DNA of 52,651 nt from a virus. Within the stretch, counting starts at the first letter, position 1. Every line of letters begins with the position of its first letter. The stretch covers positions 1 through 52,651 of IMG/VR virus record IMGVR_UViG_3300025508_000025, one strand, 5' to 3'. Below the pieces are notes generated by a model. It did not search any database. It was not told the origin of the DNA and was given only the letters and a program-made list of their open reading frames with translations. Shown here piece after piece: positions 28,526 to 51,822 of the stretch. A program made the position numbers and the translations under genes.

Positions 28526-28604
28526 CTTTTTTACCAAATATTTTTTCCCAATTGTCCTGATACTTTGTACCCTTTTCAGGTCTCCTCTTGCTACCCTTCG
28601 ACAT
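28494..28604 (-). CDS. Tiny basic protein (MSKGSKRRP family)
   Basis: The product has 36 residues starting MSKGSKRRPEKGTKYQDNW; an ATG two codons earlier (28610) is also possible. The opening MSKGSKRRP and the later NWEKIFGK are the same as in very small proteins found in replication regions of many unrelated phages. The function is unknown to me. The gene overlaps both neighbours, in different frames, which is common for this family. Confidence 0.6.
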   Translation of the reverse strand: MSKGSKRRPEKGTKYQDNWEKIFGKKDGSKRKKPKR

Positions 28605-28719
28605 CTTCATCCCATATAAAACTTACAGTAGTCTTACCAAAAGAATCATACTGAATCTTCCATACCTTAAAAGGACAAGCATTAAGCCATGCAAAGAAGT
28701 CTCTAGCTTTTTGGTTCAT
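28591..28719 (-). CDS. Tiny WL-x-C family protein, copy 1
   Basis: The product has 42 residues (MNQKARDFFAWLNACPFKV...). The ATG overlaps the upstream stop (ATGA). The pattern aromatic-AWL-x2-C, a short beta hairpin, then an F-IWDEDVE acidic end is shared with the 46-residue product at 36809..36949. Presence of a second copy, and the coupled start, argue that this short frame is a real gene. Function unknown. Confidence 0.6.
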   Translation of the reverse strand: MNQKARDFFAWLNACPFKVWKIQYDSFGKTTVSFIWDEDVEG

Positions 28720-36247: not shown

Positions 36248-36290
36248 AAAAAAAAAGGCGATAGCCACTAATTAAAGTAGCTACCGCCTT
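36248..36290 (-). terminator. Intrinsic terminator of the minus-strand arm
   Basis: AAGGCG (36255-36260) pairs with CGCCTT (36285-36290) and the stem continues inward for about 15 bp. Two positions pair as G-U only in minus-strand RNA, while they would be A-C mismatches on the plus strand. A run of nine A gives the U tract on the minus strand. It lies 8 bp beyond the stop of the gene at 36298, so it closes the long operon coming from 42.6 kb. Confidence 0.85.
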
Positions 36291-36629: not shown

Positions 36630-36812
36630 TTAATCTCTGCAAAAGATCAGGACTGATAAACAAAAAGCTGTTCCCAATCCACTATAGAAGATCACAAAGT
36701 AATCTGCCCTAGCTATCCATTCTTGCGAAAGTAATCCCTCTCCCCAAGTAAAACCTAGGAAGAGAAATGCAATAGCACCCATTGATGCAATGATAGTTAA
36801 GAATCTATTCAT
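36630..36812 (-). CDS. Small protein with two membrane helices
   Basis: The product has 60 residues with GAGGAGG upstream. Residues 4-23 (FLTIIASMGAIAFLFLGFTW) and 39-57 (FVIFYSGLGTAFCLSVLIF) are membrane helices joined by a short loop. It could be a small holin, an inhibitor of host membrane functions or an exclusion protein. Its ATG overlaps the previous stop (ATGA). Confidence 0.55.
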   Translation of the reverse strand: MNRFLTIIASMGAIAFLFLGFTWGEGLLSQEWIARADYFVIFYSGLGTAFCLSVLIFCRD

Positions 36813-36949
36813 GATAATTCCTCCTCATCAATAAAGAATTTGATATGAACAAATCCTCCACTCATAGATGAGATTGAATATCTATAATCGCAAGTTTCCA
36901 ACCATGCAATAAAAGACTTTAGATGCTTCGTCTGAATACTAGCACTCAT
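36809..36949 (-). CDS. Tiny WL-x-C family protein, copy 2
   Basis: The product has 46 residues behind GAGGTG. LKSFIAWLETCDYRYSIS then GGFVHIKFFIDEEE parallels ARDFFAWLNACPFKVW and TVSFIWDEDVE of the 42-residue protein at 28591..28719. Both genes have ATGA overlaps with their neighbours. A duplicated micro-gene in two separate operons suggests a regulator or small inhibitor, but nothing specific is known. Confidence 0.6.
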   Translation of the reverse strand: MSASIQTKHLKSFIAWLETCDYRYSISSMSGGFVHIKFFIDEEELS

Positions 36950-37092
36950 GATTGCACCTCCTCTTCGATGTCAGACAACCATTCATCAAAATCTTGTCTT
37001 AATCCGTCTGGCATATCATTAAGTAATATTTCCATTTTAGGATTGTCATTCCATTGAATTAATATTTGAGTTGCTACTATTGTTCTGCTCAT
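36946..37092 (-). CDS. Tiny acidic hypothetical protein
   Basis: The product has 48 residues (MSRTIVATQILIQWNDNPKM...SDIEEEVQS). Start and stop both overlap neighbouring genes by 4 bp as ATGA, strong evidence for translation. It is helical and acidic at its end. No family recognised. Confidence 0.55.
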   Translation of the reverse strand: MSRTIVATQILIQWNDNPKMEILLNDMPDGLRQDFDEWLSDIEEEVQS

Positions 37093-37451
37093 GATTGCAC
37101 CTCGTGATTCACAGTCAAAGTTATCAGATACTTTTTATCCTGAATATCTTTACATAGATTTATTACATCTAGATTTGTATAAAGACTCTCTCGCATAGCA
37201 AAAGAATCTAAAAACAAATCAGACTCATTCCTAGCAAAATAAATAGCATTGAGTATTAAACTCAATACATCCACCTCACTCATTGATTTATCTTTTGGAA
37301 CACCATTAGGATATTTCAAAAAACATGAGACTAACATCCAATCAGCCTTGCTCATGATATTTGGCAAATCTCCTATAGGAGTTTTACCTTTCATATCAAT
37401 CCCATATTTGCTTCCCATTTCTGAAAAGACTTTATCTCGTTCTTTATTCAT
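37089..37451 (-). CDS. Hypothetical protein behind a hammerhead ribozyme leader
   Basis: The product has 120 residues with GGAGGT 8 bp before the ATG. It is helical; SKADWMLVSCFLKYPNGVPKDKSMSEVDVLSLILNAIYFARNE has no recognised family. The 5' leader between this gene and the VWA-protein gene contains the type III hammerhead at 37485..37540, so the mRNA for this gene and the four after it would start at base 37532 after cleavage, 81 nt before the ATG. Confidence 0.6.
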   Translation of the reverse strand: MNKERDKVFSEMGSKYGIDMKGKTPIGDLPNIMSKADWMLVSCFLKYPNGVPKDKSMSEVDVLSLILNAIYFARNESDLFLDSFAMRESLYTNLDVINLCKDIQDKKYLITLTVNHEVQS

Positions 37452-37484: not shown

Positions 37485-37540
37485 TTTCTGTTTCGACCTT
37501 TTAGGTCTCATCAGGGAAAAAACACATTTTCCGACAGAAA
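37485..37540 (-). ncRNA. Hammerhead ribozyme, type III (HHR-1)
   Basis: Read on the minus strand: stem III strand UUUCUGU (37540-37534), cleavage base C17 (37533, GUC triplet), closed stem I GGAAAA/UUUUCC (37532-37527 with 37520-37515), core CUGAUGA (37514-37508), stem II GACC/GGUC with loop UAAAA (37507-37495), core GAAA (37494-37491), then the pairing strand ACAGAAA. All invariant hammerhead bases are present and all three stems pair perfectly (6, 4 and 7 bp). It lies in the 186-bp leader between the VWA-protein gene and the gene at 37089. Cleavage is predicted between 37533 and 37532. Confidence 0.9.
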
Positions 37541-37637
37541 TCGCCAAAATAGGCTTCATGTACTCGCACCAGTGAACGAATCGTGGGAGGGTCAAGGGTC
37601 TTGCAACCCCTGAAACACCCCCCTCGCATATCGCATC
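37541..37637 (-). other. GC-rich structured leader next to HHR-1
   Basis: This 97-bp stretch is unusually GC-rich for this genome. On the minus strand AGGGGUU-loop-GACCCUU can pair, with an outer G-run (GAGGGGGG) facing ACCCUCCC. It lies between the stop of the VWA gene and the ribozyme. It may be a hairpin that stops or protects the upstream mRNA, but there is no U tract and no known RNA family is recognised. Confidence 0.3.
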
Positions 37638-39071
37638 CTAGTTATAGAAGTCAGCAGTTTCAACATAGACCACTTCGCCAAAGGCTAGGTTTTCTGAATA
37701 AGTGCTTTTATCTGTGACTGCCCAAAAGACAGGTACATCAGGCTCGACTTCAGGACTCACTTCACCCCAGCCGTCAGTGAAGTAAACAATAGCTTGAACA
37801 TCATCCACATCATCTGAATGATCATTGAACAAGTTAAATGGAGGGTCGAACAATGTTCCACCACCACCCCTCACCTGTAATTCAAGATCATCGCCTTGAT
37901 CTAACTCATAGATATCCCACCACTCGCCTTGTTGATTCTTACGAACAACAGTATCGCAGTAGCACACCCTGATCTTATCAAGACCACAATCCTCAGCCAT
38001 TGCCTGAATCTCAGTAGCGAACATATTCAATTCGTATTGAGAAACAGAACCACTGGTATCAATCATGATAGCTAACTCGCCACCTTGCGGAGACTTTGCT
38101 TTGCTAGGTAAATTAATACCTCGATGTTGATGCCTTTTGTTTAGCCTAGACCAAGTATTCTCTTCAGAGATAGAGGACTGCAAAAGATCATTAAGTTGTT
38201 CTCTCCAATCCACTTGCACTTCTTGATTCGCATCAGCAGAACCAAGACCACCTGAAGAACCAGTGCCACTCATAGCAATCTCTAACTTTTCAGCTAAAGA
38301 AATTGCTCTCTGAATTTCACCTTTAACTTCTTGCATTTCTGCATCAGTCAATGGTTTCCCTTCATCGTTAGTAGCATCCCATACTTCGCCAATTGCAGAG
38401 GGAATCGAATCCCAATCTGTGCCTGTTTCAACACCCTCTCCAGTGCTTTCATCAGATTCAGATTCGCCAATACCAGTATCGGAAATATTTCCTGTACCAG
38501 TCTCAGATAATTCTTCTCCCTCTTCATCAGTTGCTTCGCTTCCACCTTGGCTTTGAGCATCCTCTTCTTCAGAGGACTCTTCACCTTTTGGTTTCTGCTG
38601 ATTAATCTGATCAATCGCTTCTTCCAAGGCTTCTTCATCTTTTACCAAGATTGCATAAACCTTTTCAGCAGTCATGCCCTTGTACTTATGATCTAGTAAA
38701 CCGCCCAAAGGCAATTCAAGTTTTAAATCCCAGTACAAATAAGCATTGATCACATAGTCACAAGCGATATTCCAAATTTTAGGATGTCGCTTTCCTCTTC
38801 TCAAAGGATGTTCATAAACAACATGAAGTGCTTCATGAACAAGTACACCCTGTAATTCAGGCTCACTCAGACCCAAGACAAAAGGCGGAAAGTAATAAAT
38901 TACTTTTCCGTCAGTTGCCATTGTGTCGCATCTAGACTGATCAACTTCCACTAAATTAAGATGTAAGAGCATGGATGCCATGCCCACATTACCTTTCATT
39001 AGTTTTGCTCTCGCCTTAACTATGTAGTCATGAGCCAATTGTGGCTCTTTTACAGTTGCTAAATTAGTCAT
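37638..39071 (-). CDS. VWA-domain protein with N-terminal metallopeptidase-like domain
   Basis: ATG 39071 is chosen (GGAGGAAAAAAGC before it); 14 codons upstream are possible but lie before the ribosome site. The product has 477 residues. HEALH at 79-83 (LVHEALHVVYEHPLRRG) is a zincin motif typical of the DUF2201 N-terminal domain. Residues about 175-260 are an acidic Ser/Glu/Gly linker. MIDTSGSVS with D338, S340 and S342 is the metal-ion site of a VWA domain. Such proteins work with MoxR AAA+ ATPases, one of which is encoded two genes upstream. Role in this phage unknown; protein remodelling or inactivating a host complex is possible. Confidence 0.8.
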   Translation of the reverse strand: MTNLATVKEPQLAHDYIVKARAKLMKGNVGMASMLLHLNLVEVDQSRCDTMATDGKVIYYFPPFVLGLSEPELQGVLVHEALHVVYEHPLRRGKRHPKIWNIACDYVINAYLYWDLKLELPLGGLLDHKYKGMTAEKVYAILVKDEEALEEAIDQINQQKPKGEESSEEEDAQSQGGSEATDEEGEELSETGTGNISDTGIGESESDESTGEGVETGTDWDSIPSAIGEVWDATNDEGKPLTDAEMQEVKGEIQRAISLAEKLEIAMSGTGSSGGLGSADANQEVQVDWREQLNDLLQSSISEENTWSRLNKRHQHRGINLPSKAKSPQGGELAIMIDTSGSVSQYELNMFATEIQAMAEDCGLDKIRVCYCDTVVRKNQQGEWWDIYELDQGDDLELQVRGGGGTLFDPPFNLFNDHSDDVDDVQAIVYFTDGWGEVSPEVEPDVPVFWAVTDKSTYSENLAFGEVVYVETADFYN

Positions 39072-40053
39072 GCTTTTTTCCTCCAAAGGCTTTTCCAAGA
39101 AAACCACCTTTAAGAGAATCAGCAGACTCTTCCAACTTCTTAGCTAAGTCTTTTCGCTTCTGTTCAGCTAAAGCATCATCTTCTCTCAGAGAGTCAATGC
39201 CATTGTTGTATCCATTAAACGTAGAAACAACGCTAACCAGTTTTTGATGAGCATCAGCAATATCTTGATCGTTACCTAAAATATCAGCGTTGATATTTGG
39301 TAAAGACCCAGTTAATTTTTCCAGTGCTTTAAAACTGGAAGCATTAAAGAAACCTTTTTGTTTCTGCTTGGGGTCATATTCCCTCAATTTTTTTGCTAAA
39401 TGATCAGTCTGTTCAAGGACAGCATCAACAGTGGTTTTAAGAACATTCTTAATATTATTGTTGATTCTATTCTTGACATCATTTTCTATCTTAGACCTTA
39501 ACTTCTCTGATACATTCAAACGAATGTCAGAGCCATATTGAGGAACAGTAGATATCTCAAATTCAAACTTAAACTTTCGTCTAAGTGAATCGAAGTCAGG
39601 GTAATCACATTCGTTGAATGCTTTACCTAAATTTCTTTTGGCTTGTTCCATTTTTTGTGGATAGCTTTTAAGAAACTCATCTACTTCTTTATCCCAAATC
39701 TGCTTTGCATCATCCACTTGATTCTGCAATGACTCTAACTGTGAGTTAGGGCATAAACGCCACCCACTCACAACCTTGTCATCCATATCAGTAGAATTAT
39801 CTGCCCAAGGCAAAGTCATCGGATAGTAATAATCATTCCTAAACTTATTTAAAATGTGGCGAAAATATTTGTTAATATCTTCTCCATAAATATGCTTAGA
39901 AACACCCAGTAATCTCTCGCTAGATACTTCAGTATCTATCGCTAAATCACGCTTTAACCTTTTATCTGTTCTGATTCCGCTAGGATGCTTCGCAGTCATG
40001 CGAACCAACACAGCATTCTCAGACAGAGTATTAGTCAATTTTTCTTTATCCAT
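39064..40053 (-). CDS. Hypothetical partner in the MoxR-VWA module
   Basis: ATG 40053 is chosen because GGAGGTTCTTATT precedes it; an upstream ATG at 40068 would place the ribosome site inside the gene. The product has 329 residues, mostly helical with a coiled-coil middle (IENDVKNRINNNIKNVLKTTVDAVLEQTDHLAKKLREY) and a C-terminal Gly-rich basic tip (GGFLGKAFGGKKHD). It sits between the AAA+ ATPase and the VWA gene and overlaps the latter by 8 bp. A substrate or adaptor role is inference. Confidence 0.6.
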   Translation of the reverse strand: MDKEKLTNTLSENAVLVRMTAKHPSGIRTDKRLKRDLAIDTEVSSERLLGVSKHIYGEDINKYFRHILNKFRNDYYYPMTLPWADNSTDMDDKVVSGWRLCPNSQLESLQNQVDDAKQIWDKEVDEFLKSYPQKMEQAKRNLGKAFNECDYPDFDSLRRKFKFEFEISTVPQYGSDIRLNVSEKLRSKIENDVKNRINNNIKNVLKTTVDAVLEQTDHLAKKLREYDPKQKQKGFFNASSFKALEKLTGSLPNINADILGNDQDIADAHQKLVSVVSTFNGYNNGIDSLREDDALAEQKRKDLAKKLEESADSLKGGFLGKAFGGKKHD

Positions 40054-40083
40054 AATAAGAACCTCCATTCTTTATTAGAAAAT

Positions 40084-40138
40084 TGCTGTTTCGATCTTAA
40101 TGATCTCTTCAGGTGAGAAAAAAAATCTCACGACAGCA
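40084..40138 (-). ncRNA. Hammerhead ribozyme, type III (HHR-2)
   Basis: Minus-strand reading: stem III UGCUGU (40138-40133), cleavage base C17 (40132, GUC), stem I GUGAGA/UCUCAC with a U7 loop (40131-40113), core CUGAAGA (40112-40106), stem II GAUC/GAUC with loop AUUAA (40105-40093), core GAAA (40092-40089), pairing strand ACAGCA. All conserved bases are kept while every stem differs in sequence from HHR-1 yet still pairs, i.e. compensatory changes. It is in the leader between the MoxR gene and the gene at 39064; cleavage predicted between 40132 and 40131. Confidence 0.9.
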
Positions 40139-40145
40139 GAGCAGA

Positions 40146-40174
40146 AAATATATTTAACCAGTAAATATAAATTC
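40146..40174. repeat. Copy of the ACCAGTAAATA motif next to HHR-2
   Basis: AAAATATATTTA-ACCAGT-AAATATAAATT at 40146-40174 carries the core with AT-rich arms on both sides. It lies just upstream (5') of HHR-2 on the transcribed strand, between the stop of the MoxR gene and the ribozyme. Confidence 0.5.
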
Positions 40175-40189
40175 TGCCCTTGCTCAGAC

Positions 40190-41239
40190 CTAGACTTCTA
40201 AGTCTTGATTCTTGATCTTGAATTCTCCATATCTTGCAGAATCCACAATATCGCTTCTTGCTCCAACAAGCGATCTCACAAAGAAAATTCCAAACTCAGG
40301 GGTAGGAAATTTCTCAATGTAATCAAGAGCATTAGCAAAGTAGTCATGCAAGTTGCTATCACTAGCTTCTTTTATAACACTCACTAATGCACAGACAGTT
40401 GCATACATCAGACCACCACTATCAACAACCTCGACATCTCCACCCTCACAAATTTCTTGCAAGTTGGGAACATCATTTTTCAGTGATAGGAATGACATAA
40501 ACTCGATACTAGCAGTTTCACCTACATCGCCTTGCACAAGTAATTGCACAATTTCTTTAGGTGGATTGCATTTAAGAGTATCGCTTAACCTCACCCATGA
40601 TCTAGGACTAGGCTGTGGGGTAGTAACCTTGGCATTAAAGTCATGCAACCACTCAGGCTGAAAACTTATGAACCCCAAAATTTCAGGACAAATATCATTC
40701 TTACTTGCCCATGCTAACCAATCATCAGGACTATGCTCAAAATCGACCATAGTGCATCTATCTGATACATGACTAGGAAGTTTATTGCTTCCTGCTCTAT
40801 CAGTTGCTCTATTACCTGCACAGATTGTTCTCCACCCTTTAGGCAAAGAATAGTCTCCTATCCTTCCCTCATACAGCAATTGCCCACATACAGCCTGAAC
40901 AGAATTCGATGCTTGGGCATACTCATCAAAGAATAAAATCCCTTCACCACTTACAGGAAGATTGCCCAAAAAGGCTCTCTTCTGTTCATTCGCATCATTG
41001 ATATAAGGCAAACCACCTAAATCAACAGACTCATATAACGACAGTCTGAAATCAATAAATCCAAACTCATTTTGAGTAGGATTAATTTTATCCACGACTA
41101 CCTTCCTATCCATAGCAATGTCATCGACATATGCTCGAACAATTGCACTTTTTCCAATACCTGTTCCCCCTAAAAGGAATGGAGTATTAGACCCTTTTAA
41201 AACTGCCTTAATCGACAGTAATGCTTGACTTGGTTTCAT
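40190..41239 (-). CDS. MoxR-type AAA+ ATPase
   Basis: ATG 41239 is chosen; GGAGGTTATTAAT precedes it. The product has 349 residues. Walker A is GGTGIGKS (24-31), Walker B is GILFFDEYAQ with D105-E106, and ICAGNRATDRAGSNKLPSHVSDR contains the sensor and arginine residues of the MoxR group. SPRSWVRLSDTL lies in the lid domain. It would form a ring that remodels a target chosen through the VWA protein encoded two genes downstream. Phage versions are known but not well studied. The leader upstream contains HHR-3. Confidence 0.85.
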   Translation of the reverse strand: MKPSQALLSIKAVLKGSNTPFLLGGTGIGKSAIVRAYVDDIAMDRKVVVDKINPTQNEFGFIDFRLSLYESVDLGGLPYINDANEQKRAFLGNLPVSGEGILFFDEYAQASNSVQAVCGQLLYEGRIGDYSLPKGWRTICAGNRATDRAGSNKLPSHVSDRCTMVDFEHSPDDWLAWASKNDICPEILGFISFQPEWLHDFNAKVTTPQPSPRSWVRLSDTLKCNPPKEIVQLLVQGDVGETASIEFMSFLSLKNDVPNLQEICEGGDVEVVDSGGLMYATVCALVSVIKEASDSNLHDYFANALDYIEKFPTPEFGIFFVRSLVGARSDIVDSARYGEFKIKNQDLEV

Positions 41240-41310
41240 ATTAATAACCTCCAAAGTTTTTATGATTCAAGTTAGTTTCAGCTACCAATAAATATTATTT
41301 ACCAGTAACT

Positions 41311-41372
41311 ACCAATACTGGATAACAATTTGCTATCCAGTTTCATAGCATTTCAGCTAATCTTCAGTTGGT
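41311..41372 (-). ncRNA. Hammerhead ribozyme, type I-like (HHR-3)
   Basis: Minus-strand reading: stem I strand ACCAA (41372-41368) begins right after the stop of the gene at 41373. Core CUGAAGA follows (41367-41361), then stem II UAGC/GCUA with loop UGAAAU, core GAAA (41344-41341), and stem III with CUGGAUAGC pairing to GUUAUCCAG (10 bp including A15-U16, 5-nt loop). The cleavage base is A17 (41316, GUA) and the second stem I strand UUGGU is at 41315-41311. All core bases are present; the usual first stem II pair (10.1-11.1) is U-U. Cleavage predicted between 41316 and 41315. Confidence 0.8.
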
Positions 41373-41714
41373 TTAAGTAATGGTGTTAGAGACAAATTCA
41401 TCATTTGGATTTTTCCAACAATCTCTAGACATAAGACCATTTTCTAAAATGTATTCCAAATGCTTAGTGGCATTTTTAATGTTATTAAACATTCTTGCCC
41501 TTGCTCCACTTTCATCACATAGATATTCATTATCTTTTGCTAAAAAATAATAACTTCTATTTTCTCCATACAATTCTTTTATTAATTCATATTCATTCCA
41601 AGAATAAATATGAACATCAATCTCATTATGTGGTTCTACTATTCGCTTGTTATCTCTCCAAACTTTCCACTGTTTAGAGATAACTTTTTTATTAGACCAT
41701 TTAATTTTATCCAT
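41373..41714 (-). CDS. Hypothetical protein between two ribozymes
   Basis: The product has 113 residues and is basic at the start (MDKIKWSNKKVISKQWKVWRDNK). No motif is recognised; there are many aromatic residues. The GGAGGG ribosome site is in a hairpin loop (41721-41736). HHR-4 lies upstream and HHR-3 begins one base after its stop codon, so a processed mRNA of this gene would carry only this frame. Confidence 0.6.
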   Translation of the reverse strand: MDKIKWSNKKVISKQWKVWRDNKRIVEPHNEIDVHIYSWNEYELIKELYGENRSYYFLAKDNEYLCDESGARARMFNNIKNATKHLEYILENGLMSRDCWKNPNDEFVSNTIT

Positions 41715-41720
41715 AATTTT

Positions 41721-41736
41721 TGACCCTCCAAGGTCA
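41721..41736 (-). promoter_or_regulatory. Hairpin presenting the Shine-Dalgarno in its loop
   Basis: TGACCCTCCAAGGTCA forms UGACC/GGUCA with the loop UUGGAG on the minus strand, and the loop is the ribosome site of the gene at 41373. The identical 16-mer precedes the gene at 41805 (42066-42081). Confidence 0.6.
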
Positions 41737-41743
41737 GTTAATT

Positions 41744-41804
41744 ACCAATAACAGACAGCACTCGCTATCTGTTTTCATAGCATCTCAGCTAATCTTCAGT
41801 TGGC
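41744..41804 (-). ncRNA. Hammerhead ribozyme, type I-like (HHR-4)
   Basis: Minus-strand reading: stem I GCCAA (41804-41800) starts directly after the stop of the gene at 41805. Core CUGAAGA (41799-41793), stem II UAGC/GCUA (loop UGAGAU), core GAAA (41776-41773), and a 10-bp stem III (AACAGAUAGC with GCUGUCUGUU, tetraloop GAGU, one G-U pair). The cleavage base is A17 (41749) and the closing strand UUGGU is at 41748-41744. Core and stem II resemble HHR-3, but stem III has changed sequence and still pairs. Cleavage predicted between 41749 and 41748. Confidence 0.8.
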
Positions 41805-42059
41805 TTAAAAAGTGTTTTTATCCCATTCAGGATTAACATTTTTTTCATCCCAATCCATATCCAATTGATTCAATAAGAATATTGTTGGCAAATAATCGTC
41901 ATGTTGATTACCCCAATCTTCCTCATAGGTTTCCAATTTTCTTTTGTATATGTCTAATGCTTTCCATAAAATCAGACTTGTATCTTCATTTACAGTTAGC
42001 TGTTTAGTCATAATTACCTTTGGCGTTTTCATACCAATTTGTTTATTTTCTTTTTGCAT
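41805..42059 (-). CDS. Small hypothetical protein
   Basis: ATG 42059 is chosen behind GGAGGGTCAAAAATT; an earlier in-frame ATG would place the ribosome site inside the gene. The product has 84 residues (MQKENKQIGMKTPKVIMTKQL...). The middle helix (DTSLILWKALDIYKRKLETYEEDWGNQHDDYLPTIFLLNQL) is acidic. No family is recognised. It is flanked by HHR-5 upstream and HHR-4 downstream. Confidence 0.55.
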   Translation of the reverse strand: MQKENKQIGMKTPKVIMTKQLTVNEDTSLILWKALDIYKRKLETYEEDWGNQHDDYLPTIFLLNQLDMDWDEKNVNPEWDKNTF

Positions 42060-42065
42060 AATTTT

Positions 42066-42081
42066 TGACCCTCCAAGGTCA
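42066..42081 (-). promoter_or_regulatory. Hairpin presenting the Shine-Dalgarno in its loop (second copy)
   Basis: The same TGACCCTCCAAGGTCA 16-mer as at 41721 precedes the gene at 41805. Stem UGACC/GGUCA, loop UUGGAG. Flanking bases (CATAATTTT on the start-codon side and TTAATTACCAA beyond) are also shared, so the whole leader has been duplicated. Confidence 0.6.
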
Positions 42082-42090
42082 TGTTTAATT

Positions 42091-42176
42091 ACCAAGATTC
42101 CCTCGAAAGGGTCAGGGCATTACTGCTACCTGTTTTAAAATTTCGACTGGATTCTCGCCAGTCATCATCAGTTGGT
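42091..42176 (-). ncRNA. Hammerhead-like ribozyme with branched stem III (HHR-5)
   Basis: Minus-strand reading: stem I ACCAA (42176-42172) directly follows the stop of the gene at 42177. Core CUGAUGA (42171-42165), one extra U, stem II GACUGG/CCAGUC (loop 7 nt), core GAAA (42144-42141), a short stem III AUU/AAU, then two inner hairpins: CAGG..CCUG capped by GUAA, and CCCU-UUCG-AGGG. The cleavage base is C17 (42096, AUC) and the closing strand is UUGGU (42095-42091). The extra U and the 3-bp base of stem III make activity less certain than in HHR-1 to HHR-4. Confidence 0.6.
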
Positions 42177-42593
42177 TTACCCTGTATTTTTTATAGGGTC
42201 ATCAAGGAAAACATCTCCATGCACAGAACGAATAACATAATTAAGATTTTCGTTTATCGTTATTTGTCTATCGTTAATGAATAAGATTTGATTTCCCTTG
42301 ATCTGTTTAAGATAAACAGAATCAGATGCAAAAACATAGGAAAAAATAGCGTTTAATCTCTCCCTTGTTGTGACTGTATCCCACCCACACATTGAAAAAC
42401 ATAAGTGAATATTGTTACTTAAATTTTCGCTAGGATGATTGTTCTCGAACCATGCAATTTTATTGTCATGCAAGAAAACCCCTTGCTGTTTTTTGCTCGA
42501 CCATTCTGATATTGGTCGAATTCTAGTATTGCCCATTATTTTATTTACATTTTCAGTAAATGCTTCAGCAATTTCTTTTGATACTTTTCTCAT
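42177..42593 (-). CDS. Hypothetical protein, first gene of the ribozyme-bearing operon
   Basis: The product has 138 residues with GGAGGT before the ATG. EIAEAFTENVNKIMGNTRIRPISEWSSKKQQGVFLHDNKIAWFENNHPSENLSNNIHLCFSMCGWDTVTTRERLNAIFSY has no recognised motif; it may be a small alpha/beta protein. Its ribosome site pairs with the upstream strand in the HHR-6 model. It is the first gene of the minus-strand arm, with a leader of at least 80 nt. Confidence 0.6.
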   Translation of the reverse strand: MRKVSKEIAEAFTENVNKIMGNTRIRPISEWSSKKQQGVFLHDNKIAWFENNHPSENLSNNIHLCFSMCGWDTVTTRERLNAIFSYVFASDSVYLKQIKGNQILFINDRQITINENLNYVIRSVHGDVFLDDPIKNTG

Positions 42594-42601
42594 AAGTTAA
42601 A

Positions 42602-42673
42602 CCTCCAAGGTTTTGTTTCTTGAACCCCAAAATAGGATTCTCTTCAGCCTGTTAATTCAGGGACAGTTGGAGG
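42602..42673 (-). ncRNA. Hammerhead-like ribozyme whose outer stem covers the Shine-Dalgarno (HHR-6)
   Basis: Minus-strand reading: outer strand CCUCCAA (42673-42667), C, inner UGU, cleavage base C17 (42662, GUC), stem I CCUG/CAGG with 6-nt loop (42661-42648), core CUGAAGA (42647-42641), stem II GAAUCC/GGGUUC (42640-42622), two extra A, core GAAA (42619-42616), then ACA, an AAAACC bulge and UUGGAGG (42608-42602), the ribosome site of the gene at 42177. Two inserted A and an interrupted stem III weaken it as a ribozyme, but the 7-bp outer helix is perfect. Cleavage predicted between 42662 and 42661. Confidence 0.55.
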
Positions 42674-43005
42674 ACTGCCTAGGACATACTGCAGTAGCAA
42701 GTATCGGTGTATCGTGAACGCCTAAGTAGTTTCCATTTCACTACATCTCAGGGAACGCTTTTTGTTTTGATGCTTCTCTTTATCATCGAGGGTAAATCTA
42801 GAGACCCTCAGCTAAGTTAGTATCTTAATAAGTAATACAGCTACCTAGCAGTCATATATGGCTGTTCTATAAAGACCTCCTTTTTGGTTTAATATTCGTT
42901 GTCATGTGCATACCTTAACACCATGAATATCATCAATGCAACATCTTATTAGATTGCAGTATGTGAGCATTACGAAACTCTGCTTACTGGTAGATAATAT
43001 TAAGC
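42674..43005. other. Intergenic region between diverging minus arm and terminase genes
   Basis: About 330 bp without a convincing gene. It holds the start of the minus-strand arm transcript and the leader of the small terminase gene. A hairpin GAGGGT/ACCCTC is at about 42788-42809. TATCTTAATAAGTAA at 42831 resembles TATTTTAATAAGTAA at 32816. TTACTGGTAGATAATATT lies just before the terminase ATG and overlaps a possible -10 (GATAAT) with TTACGA 17 bp upstream. No convincing promoter for the minus arm could be fixed. Confidence 0.4.
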
Positions 43006-50869: not shown

Positions 50870-51784
50870 ATGGCAGCTATATCAAGAGCTAATGAGCTCA
50901 AGCAACTATTACCTGGACTTAACGCCTTGTTTGGTGAAGAGTATGGTAATTACGAAAACGAGCACGAAGAAATTTATGTTTCAGAGAATTCCGAGAGATC
51001 ATTTGAGGAAGAACTAAAACTATCTGGCTTCGGTGCAGCACCTGTAAAGAATGAAGGATCAACTATCAGTTATGATACTGCTCAAGAATCTTTTGTGGCT
51101 CGTTACACACACGAAACTATCGCAATGGGATATTCAGTTACAGAGGAAGCTATGGAAGATAATCTATATGTTTCTTTGTCAGCTAGATATACTAAAGCAC
51201 TAGCTCGTGCAATGGCTTACACAAAGCAAGTAAAAGGAGCATTTCCATTAAACAATGGATTTAGCACTGCATTTACTTCAGGCGATGGGGTTGCTTTATT
51301 TAGCACAGCTCATCCACTTGTAAGTGGCGGAACTAACAGCAATAGACCTACAACAGGAGCTGACTTGAATGAAACATCTTTAGAAGATGCGATCATCCAA
51401 ATTGGTAAATATACTGATGAAAGAGGTCTTAAAATTGCTGCACGAGCTAAAAAACTAATAGTACCATCTGAACTTCAGTTTGTTGCTACTAGGCTTTTAC
51501 AAAGTGACTATAGAGTTGGAACGGCTGACAATGACATCAATGCGGTAAAAACTAATGGAGTGATTCCAGAAGGCTATTCAGTTAATCATTATTTAACTGA
51601 TACTAATGCTTTCTTTATCACTACTGATGTTCCAGACGGCATGAAGCATTTCGTCAGAGCACCGATGACAACATCTATGGATGGTGATTTTGAAACTGGT
51701 AATGTTAGATATAAAGCTAGAGAAAGATATTCCTTTGGAGTATCCGATCCGCTTGGTATCTATGGTTCACCAGGTAGTTCGTAA
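50870..51784 (+). CDS. Major capsid protein
   Basis: The product has 304 residues with AAGGAG before the ATG. AAISRANELKQLLPGLNALFGEEYGNYENEHEEIY, then SYDTAQESFVARYTHETIAMGYSVTEEAMEDNLY and the segment FSTAHPLVSGGTNSNRPTTGADLNETSLEDAIIQI belong to a capsid family common in marine short-tailed phages (HK97 fold is assumed). The strong terminator just after it suits a highly expressed gene. No protease cleavage site could be fixed. Confidence 0.9.
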   Translation: MAAISRANELKQLLPGLNALFGEEYGNYENEHEEIYVSENSERSFEEELKLSGFGAAPVKNEGSTISYDTAQESFVARYTHETIAMGYSVTEEAMEDNLYVSLSARYTKALARAMAYTKQVKGAFPLNNGFSTAFTSGDGVALFSTAHPLVSGGTNSNRPTTGADLNETSLEDAIIQIGKYTDERGLKIAARAKKLIVPSELQFVATRLLQSDYRVGTADNDINAVKTNGVIPEGYSVNHYLTDTNAFFITTDVPDGMKHFVRAPMTTSMDGDFETGNVRYKARERYSFGVSDPLGIYGSPGSS

Positions 51785-51792
51785 GAACACTT

Positions 51793-51822
51793 AGGGGGAG
51801 CTTATGTTCCCCCTTTTTTTTT
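51793..51822 (+). terminator. Strong terminator after the major capsid gene
   Basis: AGGGGGA (51793-51799) pairs with TCCCCCT (51808-51814), an 8-nt loop, then nine T in total. It is the clearest plus-strand terminator in the window and lies 9 bp after the capsid stop. It would separate head genes from the following tail-side genes or reduce their expression. Confidence 0.9.

Follow-up and report, generated by a model that had tools for sequence, protein, structure and literature searches.

Why should every gap of a phage operon contain an element that resembles a hammerhead ribozyme? The role of bacterial and phage hammerheads is an open question (PMC6155905), and it is raised here by the IMG/VR virus record IMGVR_UViG_3300025508_000025, a tailed phage sequence of 52,651 bases, the whole of which is termed the window. 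An operon of ~6.7 kb, which runs on the minus strand from ~43.0 kb to a terminator at 36290-36255, contains six hammerhead-like elements, all on the transcribed strand and met by transcription in the order 6 (in the leader), 5, 4, 3, 2 and 1. These had been noted in a preliminary description and are confirmed here, five by covariance models (E values from 1e-16 to 7e-5) and the sixth by covariation in its three stems. Covariation, the conserved core, the common strand, the occupancy of gaps and a single terminator after the array lend strong support to the proposal made at the same time, that the elements are hammerheads positioned to cleave a polycistronic mRNA.

Structure of the six elements

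The minus strand was read directly and then searched with Rfam, a strict hammerhead descriptor and two covariance models derived from relatives, R1 for type I and R2 for type III hammerheads; a relaxed descriptor overlooked known elements, and the covariance models were used instead. The strict descriptor gave three matches in the window, against 0.017 expected by chance per window over both strands. The core C3 U4 G5 A6 N7 G8 A9 / G12 A13 A14 / A15.1-U16.1 is present in all six elements. Hammerheads 1 and 2 display a paired 10.1-11.1 position and an uninterrupted core, hammerheads 3 and 4 a U10.1-U11.1 mismatch, which is reported in the literature to be active, hammerhead 5 an extra U after A9 and hammerhead 6 the dinucleotide AA before G12.

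Hammerhead 1 (37485-37540, this and the following elements being on the minus strand) is a canonical type III element (R2 67.1 bits, E 1.3e-16) with a predicted cut between 37533 and 37532. Hammerhead 2 (40083-40139; R2 41.4 bits, E 3e-9) is also of type III, is preceded by a long AU-rich hairpin and has its predicted cut between 40132 and 40131. The next three elements are of type I. They comprise hammerhead 3 (41311-41372; R1 64 bits, E 8.3e-13), predicted to be cut between 41316 and 41315 immediately ahead of a 5' hairpin (UUACUGGUAAAUAAUAUUUAUUGGUAG), hammerhead 4 (41744-41804; R1 43.4 bits, E 5.9e-8), with a predicted cut between 41749 and 41748, and hammerhead 5 (42091-42176; R1 30.4 bits, E 6.7e-5), which begins at the upstream stop codon and would be cut between 42096 and 42095.

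Hammerhead 6 (~42614-42665) is a variant type III element with a stem I of 4 bp, a stem III of 3 bp and a predicted cut between 42662 and 42661. Neither R1 nor R2 matches it in the window, and its reading as a degenerate element on that ground was overturned by its conservation in relatives. It is kept in more than 50 of them, and in an alignment made without reference to structure (A9) its pairs form in 99.5% of cells (25-49% in slid controls), and each of the three stems shows double changes.

Conservation and covariation in related viral loci

The MoxR and DUF2201 proteins of the operon served to retrieve related viral loci, sixteen at first and then 79. Model matches in 87 loci amounted to 114 of type I and 187 of type III, some elements being counted by both R1 and R2, and all lie on the coding strand. 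In covariation alignments fitted to the structure, 17 of 18 type III pairs carry double changes and 96.2% of cells are paired (34-52% when slid), the corresponding figures for type I being 13 of 18 pairs and 98.5% (28-39% when slid). For both types, pairing and double changes are far above shuffled and slid controls. The compensatory changes that the preliminary description proposed to look for are found and pairing is kept, in 96.2-98.5% of cells against 28-52% after sliding. De novo folding of an unfitted alignment with RNAalifold recovered stems I and III. The sequences UGARAU in loop II of type I and UGUGUA in loop I of type III elements are conserved, suggesting a putative tertiary contact between loops I and II.

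The catalytic core is invariant or nearly so among 154 distinct hits, and H17 is never G, being C or A in type I and C, A or U in type III elements. Such constancy is expected only if catalysis is selected. It bears directly on whether the elements could be structured regulatory features that remain mostly uncut, acting as terminator-like or translation-controlling hairpins. Other hairpins do lie in the gaps, the ribosome-binding sites (RBSs) are inside hairpins, and a terminator-like stem with a U run precedes the ribozyme in some arrays; but such features would need neither an invariant CUGANGA/GAAA core nor the exclusion of G from H17, and we regard this explanation as very unlikely.

Three classes of core-like sequence were set aside as chance matches. 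They are a motif at 38455-38426, inside the DUF2201 gene, which fails the strict descriptor at stems I and III; three matches from a pattern scan of bacterial genomes, which lack matching stems, two having no model match and the third an E value of 0.016; and viral pattern matches in L100, L101, L110, L130, L145 and L155.

Occupancy of gaps and organisation of the cassette

The operon has five intergenic gaps, of 186, 121, 133, 90 and 117 nt, and a leader of 412 nt. A hammerhead is present in each of the five gaps and in the leader, while overlapping gene pairs have none. The preliminary description had counted six gaps above 70 bp; all gaps are indeed occupied, but they are really these five plus the leader. 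Its statement that genes elsewhere overlap and lack hammerheads is only roughly true as regards overlap, 178 nt at 28538-28715 being without a picked gene; no hammerhead was found there or beyond the terminator. The array has a single terminator, located after the last ribozyme, and no terminator-like site was found in the operon gaps on the minus strand.

Homologous gaps were also extracted from relatives without selecting on the ribozyme. The hammerhead core is present in 45/45 distinct gaps between MoxR and DUF3150, in 38/38 gaps after DUF2201, in 15/18 gaps between DUF3150 and DUF2201, where a gap exists, and in 37/45 fixed windows of 150 nt before MoxR. Most of the remaining eight MoxR windows have elements with model matches that start just outside the 150 nt, and L040 carries a one-base core change. 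By comparison, random 150-nt windows in hammerhead-rich loci contain a loose core in 11% of cases on the same strand and 1.6% on the opposite strand. The density reaches nine hammerheads in ~6 kb in each of L046, L048 and L072.

The elements belong to a stereotyped cassette consisting of stop codon, ribozyme, 5' hairpin, Shine-Dalgarno hairpin and ATG. At 43 of 54 type I sites no nucleotide separates stem I from the upstream stop codon, and the genes upstream of type I sites fall into 32 unrelated protein clusters among 53, showing that the ribozyme and the downstream leader stay while the cargo changes. Hairpins flank the cleavage sites, directly after that of type I (mean z -2.25, 54 leaders) and before that of type III (mean z -2.9, 85). 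RBS hairpins of at least 5 bp, mostly with a UGGA loop, precede 129 of 149 genes downstream of ribozymes, compared with 133 of 318 other genes.

The turnover of cargo is also what would be seen if the ribozymes were mainly borders of exchangeable gene cassettes, with common intergenic sequence through which recombination swaps small cargo genes, cleavage being incidental or serving only to make the cassettes neutral to their neighbours. Besides the 32 clusters upstream of 53 type I sites, stem II or III modules occur in varying combinations from position to position and a two-hairpin insert is variably present at the same site in near relatives. Recombination, however, requires sequence identity, whereas the stems diverge with compensating changes around a fixed core and H17, which amounts to selection on folding and catalysis. 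We therefore hold this alternative to be rather unlikely.

An array of tiny genes was observed at L046:2318-3931, and also in L048 and L072, in which a type III hammerhead leads each gene at a spacing of ~335 bp. A terminator-like stem and U run merge into stem III in these units, and some of the hammerheads have an extra base after A6 (CUGAAUGA).

Structural variants

Two kinds of inserted domain were identified. The first is a double hairpin that joins directly, with no linkers, to core A9 on one side and to stem II position 10.1 on the other, the first hairpin being always GNRA-capped; it is there or not there at the same site in near relatives, and occurs at L006:6626, L008:11704, L012:2807, L033:6922, L038:2779 and L046:5886. 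The second, seen in some type I elements including hammerhead 5 (L062:1563-1646, L058:4960-5042 and window 42091-42176), is a three-way junction within stem III, with covarying stems and a GNRA loop in alignment A1. It is made up of UUAAA, a GNRA hairpin with a 2-nt bulge and a CCC..GGG hairpin, the latter being CCCU..AGGG in hammerhead 5. This domain could be structural or an aptamer; the elaborated stem III matched no Rfam family. Hammerhead 6 represents a further variant, in which AA precedes G12 and the leader hairpin uses the same strand as stem III. No structural variant matched Rfam above threshold. Stem II and stem III modules are reused in different combinations at different positions.

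Leader RNA and ribosome-binding sites

A gene-free leader, annotated at 42666-43005 and spanning 42662-43005 with its 3' hairpin (minus strand), occupies the divergent junction, where blastn comparison with relatives reveals a conserved block of ~60 nt near the 5' end, a conserved 3' end and a variable middle. No Rfam family was found in the leader, and its folding as a whole is no better than that of shuffles (z -0.3). At its 3' end lies a hairpin, GGCAG-UCCUCCAA-CUGUC (42662-42679, minus strand), which is kept in relatives with compensating stem changes and whose 3' strand doubles as the 5' strand of stem III of hammerhead 6.

The loop of this hairpin, CCUCCAA, is the complement of the UUGGAGG ribosome-binding sites of the operon; UUGGAGG occurs six times on the window's minus strand, each time as an RBS of this operon. 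In relatives assigned by pattern, UUGGAG is found at 156 of 213 RBSs in loci with a CUCCAA loop and at 3 of 56 in loci without it, or at 159 of 233 and 0 of 36 after hand correction of four misassigned loci, a match that is suggestive only, because the loci that lack the loop represent only about two lineages. The leader may be a regulatory RNA, with a 3' end generated by hammerhead 6. A more elaborate scheme, which we consider doubtful, would have hammerhead 6 free the leader as a trans-acting RNA, whose CCUCCAA loop kisses the UUGGAG loops of RBS hairpins and coordinates translation of the operon. Because one strand serves both the hairpin and stem III, loop pairing would at the same time switch hammerhead 6; the ribozymes that carry inserted domains would be regulated hammerheads of natural origin.

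Gene content of the operon and the phage

The operon comprises three small genes, a MoxR-like ATPase, a DUF3150-like gene, a DUF2201 metallopeptidase/VWA gene and four short genes, all on the minus strand. The first matches the Kyanoviridae Gp96-like family (PF23790; 42177-42593), and the two small cargo genes that follow (41805-42059 and 41373-41714) have no family match. The MoxR-like AAA ATPase (phrog_1297) lies at 40190-41239. The DUF3150-like gene was called at 39064-40068 on a weak match below the Pfam cut-off; the called start is likely wrong, and the ATG at 40053 is the likelier start, because AUGGAGG at 40068 resembles an RBS (window 40053-40068). This gene overlaps that of the DUF2201 putative metallopeptidase with a VWA-like protein (37638-39071), and no hammerhead lies between them. 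Four short overlapping genes (36630-37451) end the operon, followed by the intrinsic terminator-like site at 36255-36290 (minus strand), with 15 pairs and a T run.

No DNA match of the window was found among GenBank phages. Its large terminase is ~51-59% identical to those of phage DSL-LC04, 023Pt_psg01 and the Pelagibacter phages HTVC027P and HTVC023P. Elsewhere in the window, a strong terminator-like hairpin was observed 3' of a putative major head gene (51763-51821, plus strand); a weak match to SorY was recorded there (E 0.035, far below threshold). A Flavobacterium-1 RNA (RF02976, 90.2 bits) was observed in a pelagiphage, HTVC027P (L095:17753-17873).

Proposed mechanism of RNA processing

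Probably, the polycistronic RNA is cut in cis by the six hammerheads, its new ends are protected and each gene is insulated from a changing neighbour. A single transcript would run from ~43.0 kb to the terminator near 36.26 kb and be cleaved into the leader RNA, four mRNAs of one gene each (including that of MoxR), a message for DUF3150 and DUF2201 and a tail message, with cutting fixing the two ends of every piece. On the upstream side of a cut, the RNA would carry a 2',3'-cyclic phosphate behind a terminal hairpin or, for type I, behind the ribozyme itself, and the downstream piece would begin with a 5'-OH, usually within a few nt of a hairpin, followed by the RBS in a small hairpin. Each gene would thereby acquire a constant, insulated leader regardless of the cargo gene upstream, as with the synthetic RiboJ insulator. 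The preliminary description supposed that the pieces may differ in stability or translation rate; the flanking hairpins make end protection the more specific reading. We infer that cleavage, end protection and insulation operate in the infected cell.

The predicted ends would also suit another fate, in which each gene is freed as a ribozyme-flanked fragment and ligated into a circular RNA, in the manner of retrozymes and viroid-like RNAs. Single genes do lie between consecutive ribozymes, whose cuts would leave 5'-OH and cyclic-phosphate ends, which RtcB-type ligases join. Yet no RNA ligase was found among the window proteins scanned (part of all), types I and III are mixed and no repeat units are seen. 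A search for circular or spliced products from clustered hammerheads of bacteria, moreover, found none (PMC3088659). Circularisation is thus highly improbable.

Several observations weigh against processing by cis cleavage. Self-cleavage at the listed sites is a prediction from sequence, and fast cleavage needs contacts between loops I and II, which here are putative. Hammerheads 3-6 depart from the hammerhead consensus, and many relatives of hammerhead 6 carry an extra base after A6, which is reported to cleave poorly. The Rfam search envisaged in the preliminary description gave no family at gathering score, in the window or in 11 relatives, the best being hammerhead 1 with RF00008 (47.5 bits, E 2e-7, against 48.5); the gathering score is a detection threshold and not a property of the ribozyme. 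A simple test for a hairpin near the end is little or no better than shuffles (0.96 versus 0.77; 0.81 versus 0.81), so that support for end hairpins rests on energies. Finally, no hammerheads were found in the isolates HTVC027P, HTVC023P, DSL-LC04 and 023Pt_psg01 (first 30-40 kb of each). As these have related terminases and lack ribozymes in the stretches read, the elements are not essential for such phages.

Comparison with known hammerhead systems

The preliminary description knew of no such tiled set in a phage operon. This was overstated, because Perreault et al. (2011) had already reported hammerheads clustered around prophage genes, with the same proposal of mRNA processing (PMC3088659). 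That work showed cleavage of tandem sets in vitro and of a triple set upon expression in E. coli (PMC3088659). As here, several hammerheads, there of types I-III, lie on the transcribed strand of phage genes and flank single genes or small blocks of varying identity. The present set differs in being systematic, occupying the leader and all gaps with six elements and up to nine in relatives, and in being kept across a broad group of uncultivated phages, with 5' and RBS hairpins and new structural variants. The hammerhead HHphage of haloviruses HF1/HF2 likewise lies close upstream of a phage gene, with a 5' end mapped near the cleavage site, but is a single element with insertions near C3 (PMC3088659). 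Clustered phage hammerheads are thus already known, and as the literature searched was that under open licence, later descriptions may have been missed. What is new is the scale (up to nine in 6 kb), the stereotyped cassette, the ribozymes with inserted domains and the anti-Shine-Dalgarno loop of the leader.

The elements share with RF00008 (Hammerhead_3) and the type I families of Rfam the catalytic core, the three-stem layout and the NUH cleavage site. They differ in scoring below the gathering level and in displaying the A9-10.1 double hairpin, the stem III three-way junction and AA before G12. The double hairpin in the core and the junction in stem III are new ways to enlarge a hammerhead, and all were missed by standard RNA database thresholds. 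Retrozymes and viroid-like circular RNAs also have hammerheads flanking an RNA unit; here, in contrast, the cargo is protein-coding and there are no repeat units.

The operon recurs in dozens of related viruses as a natural experiment, with constant position and layout, changing cargo and variants present or absent at the same site, so that the hypotheses of processing and insulation can be tested directly. It is a natural counterpart of an engineered insulator, RiboJ, which combines the sTRSV hammerhead with a downstream hairpin. In both, a constant leader would result from ribozyme cleavage ahead of a 5' hairpin, with the RBS behind it. Unlike RiboJ, the phage arrangement is natural and polycistronic, the RBS is itself in a hairpin, and the insulating function is a proposed one.

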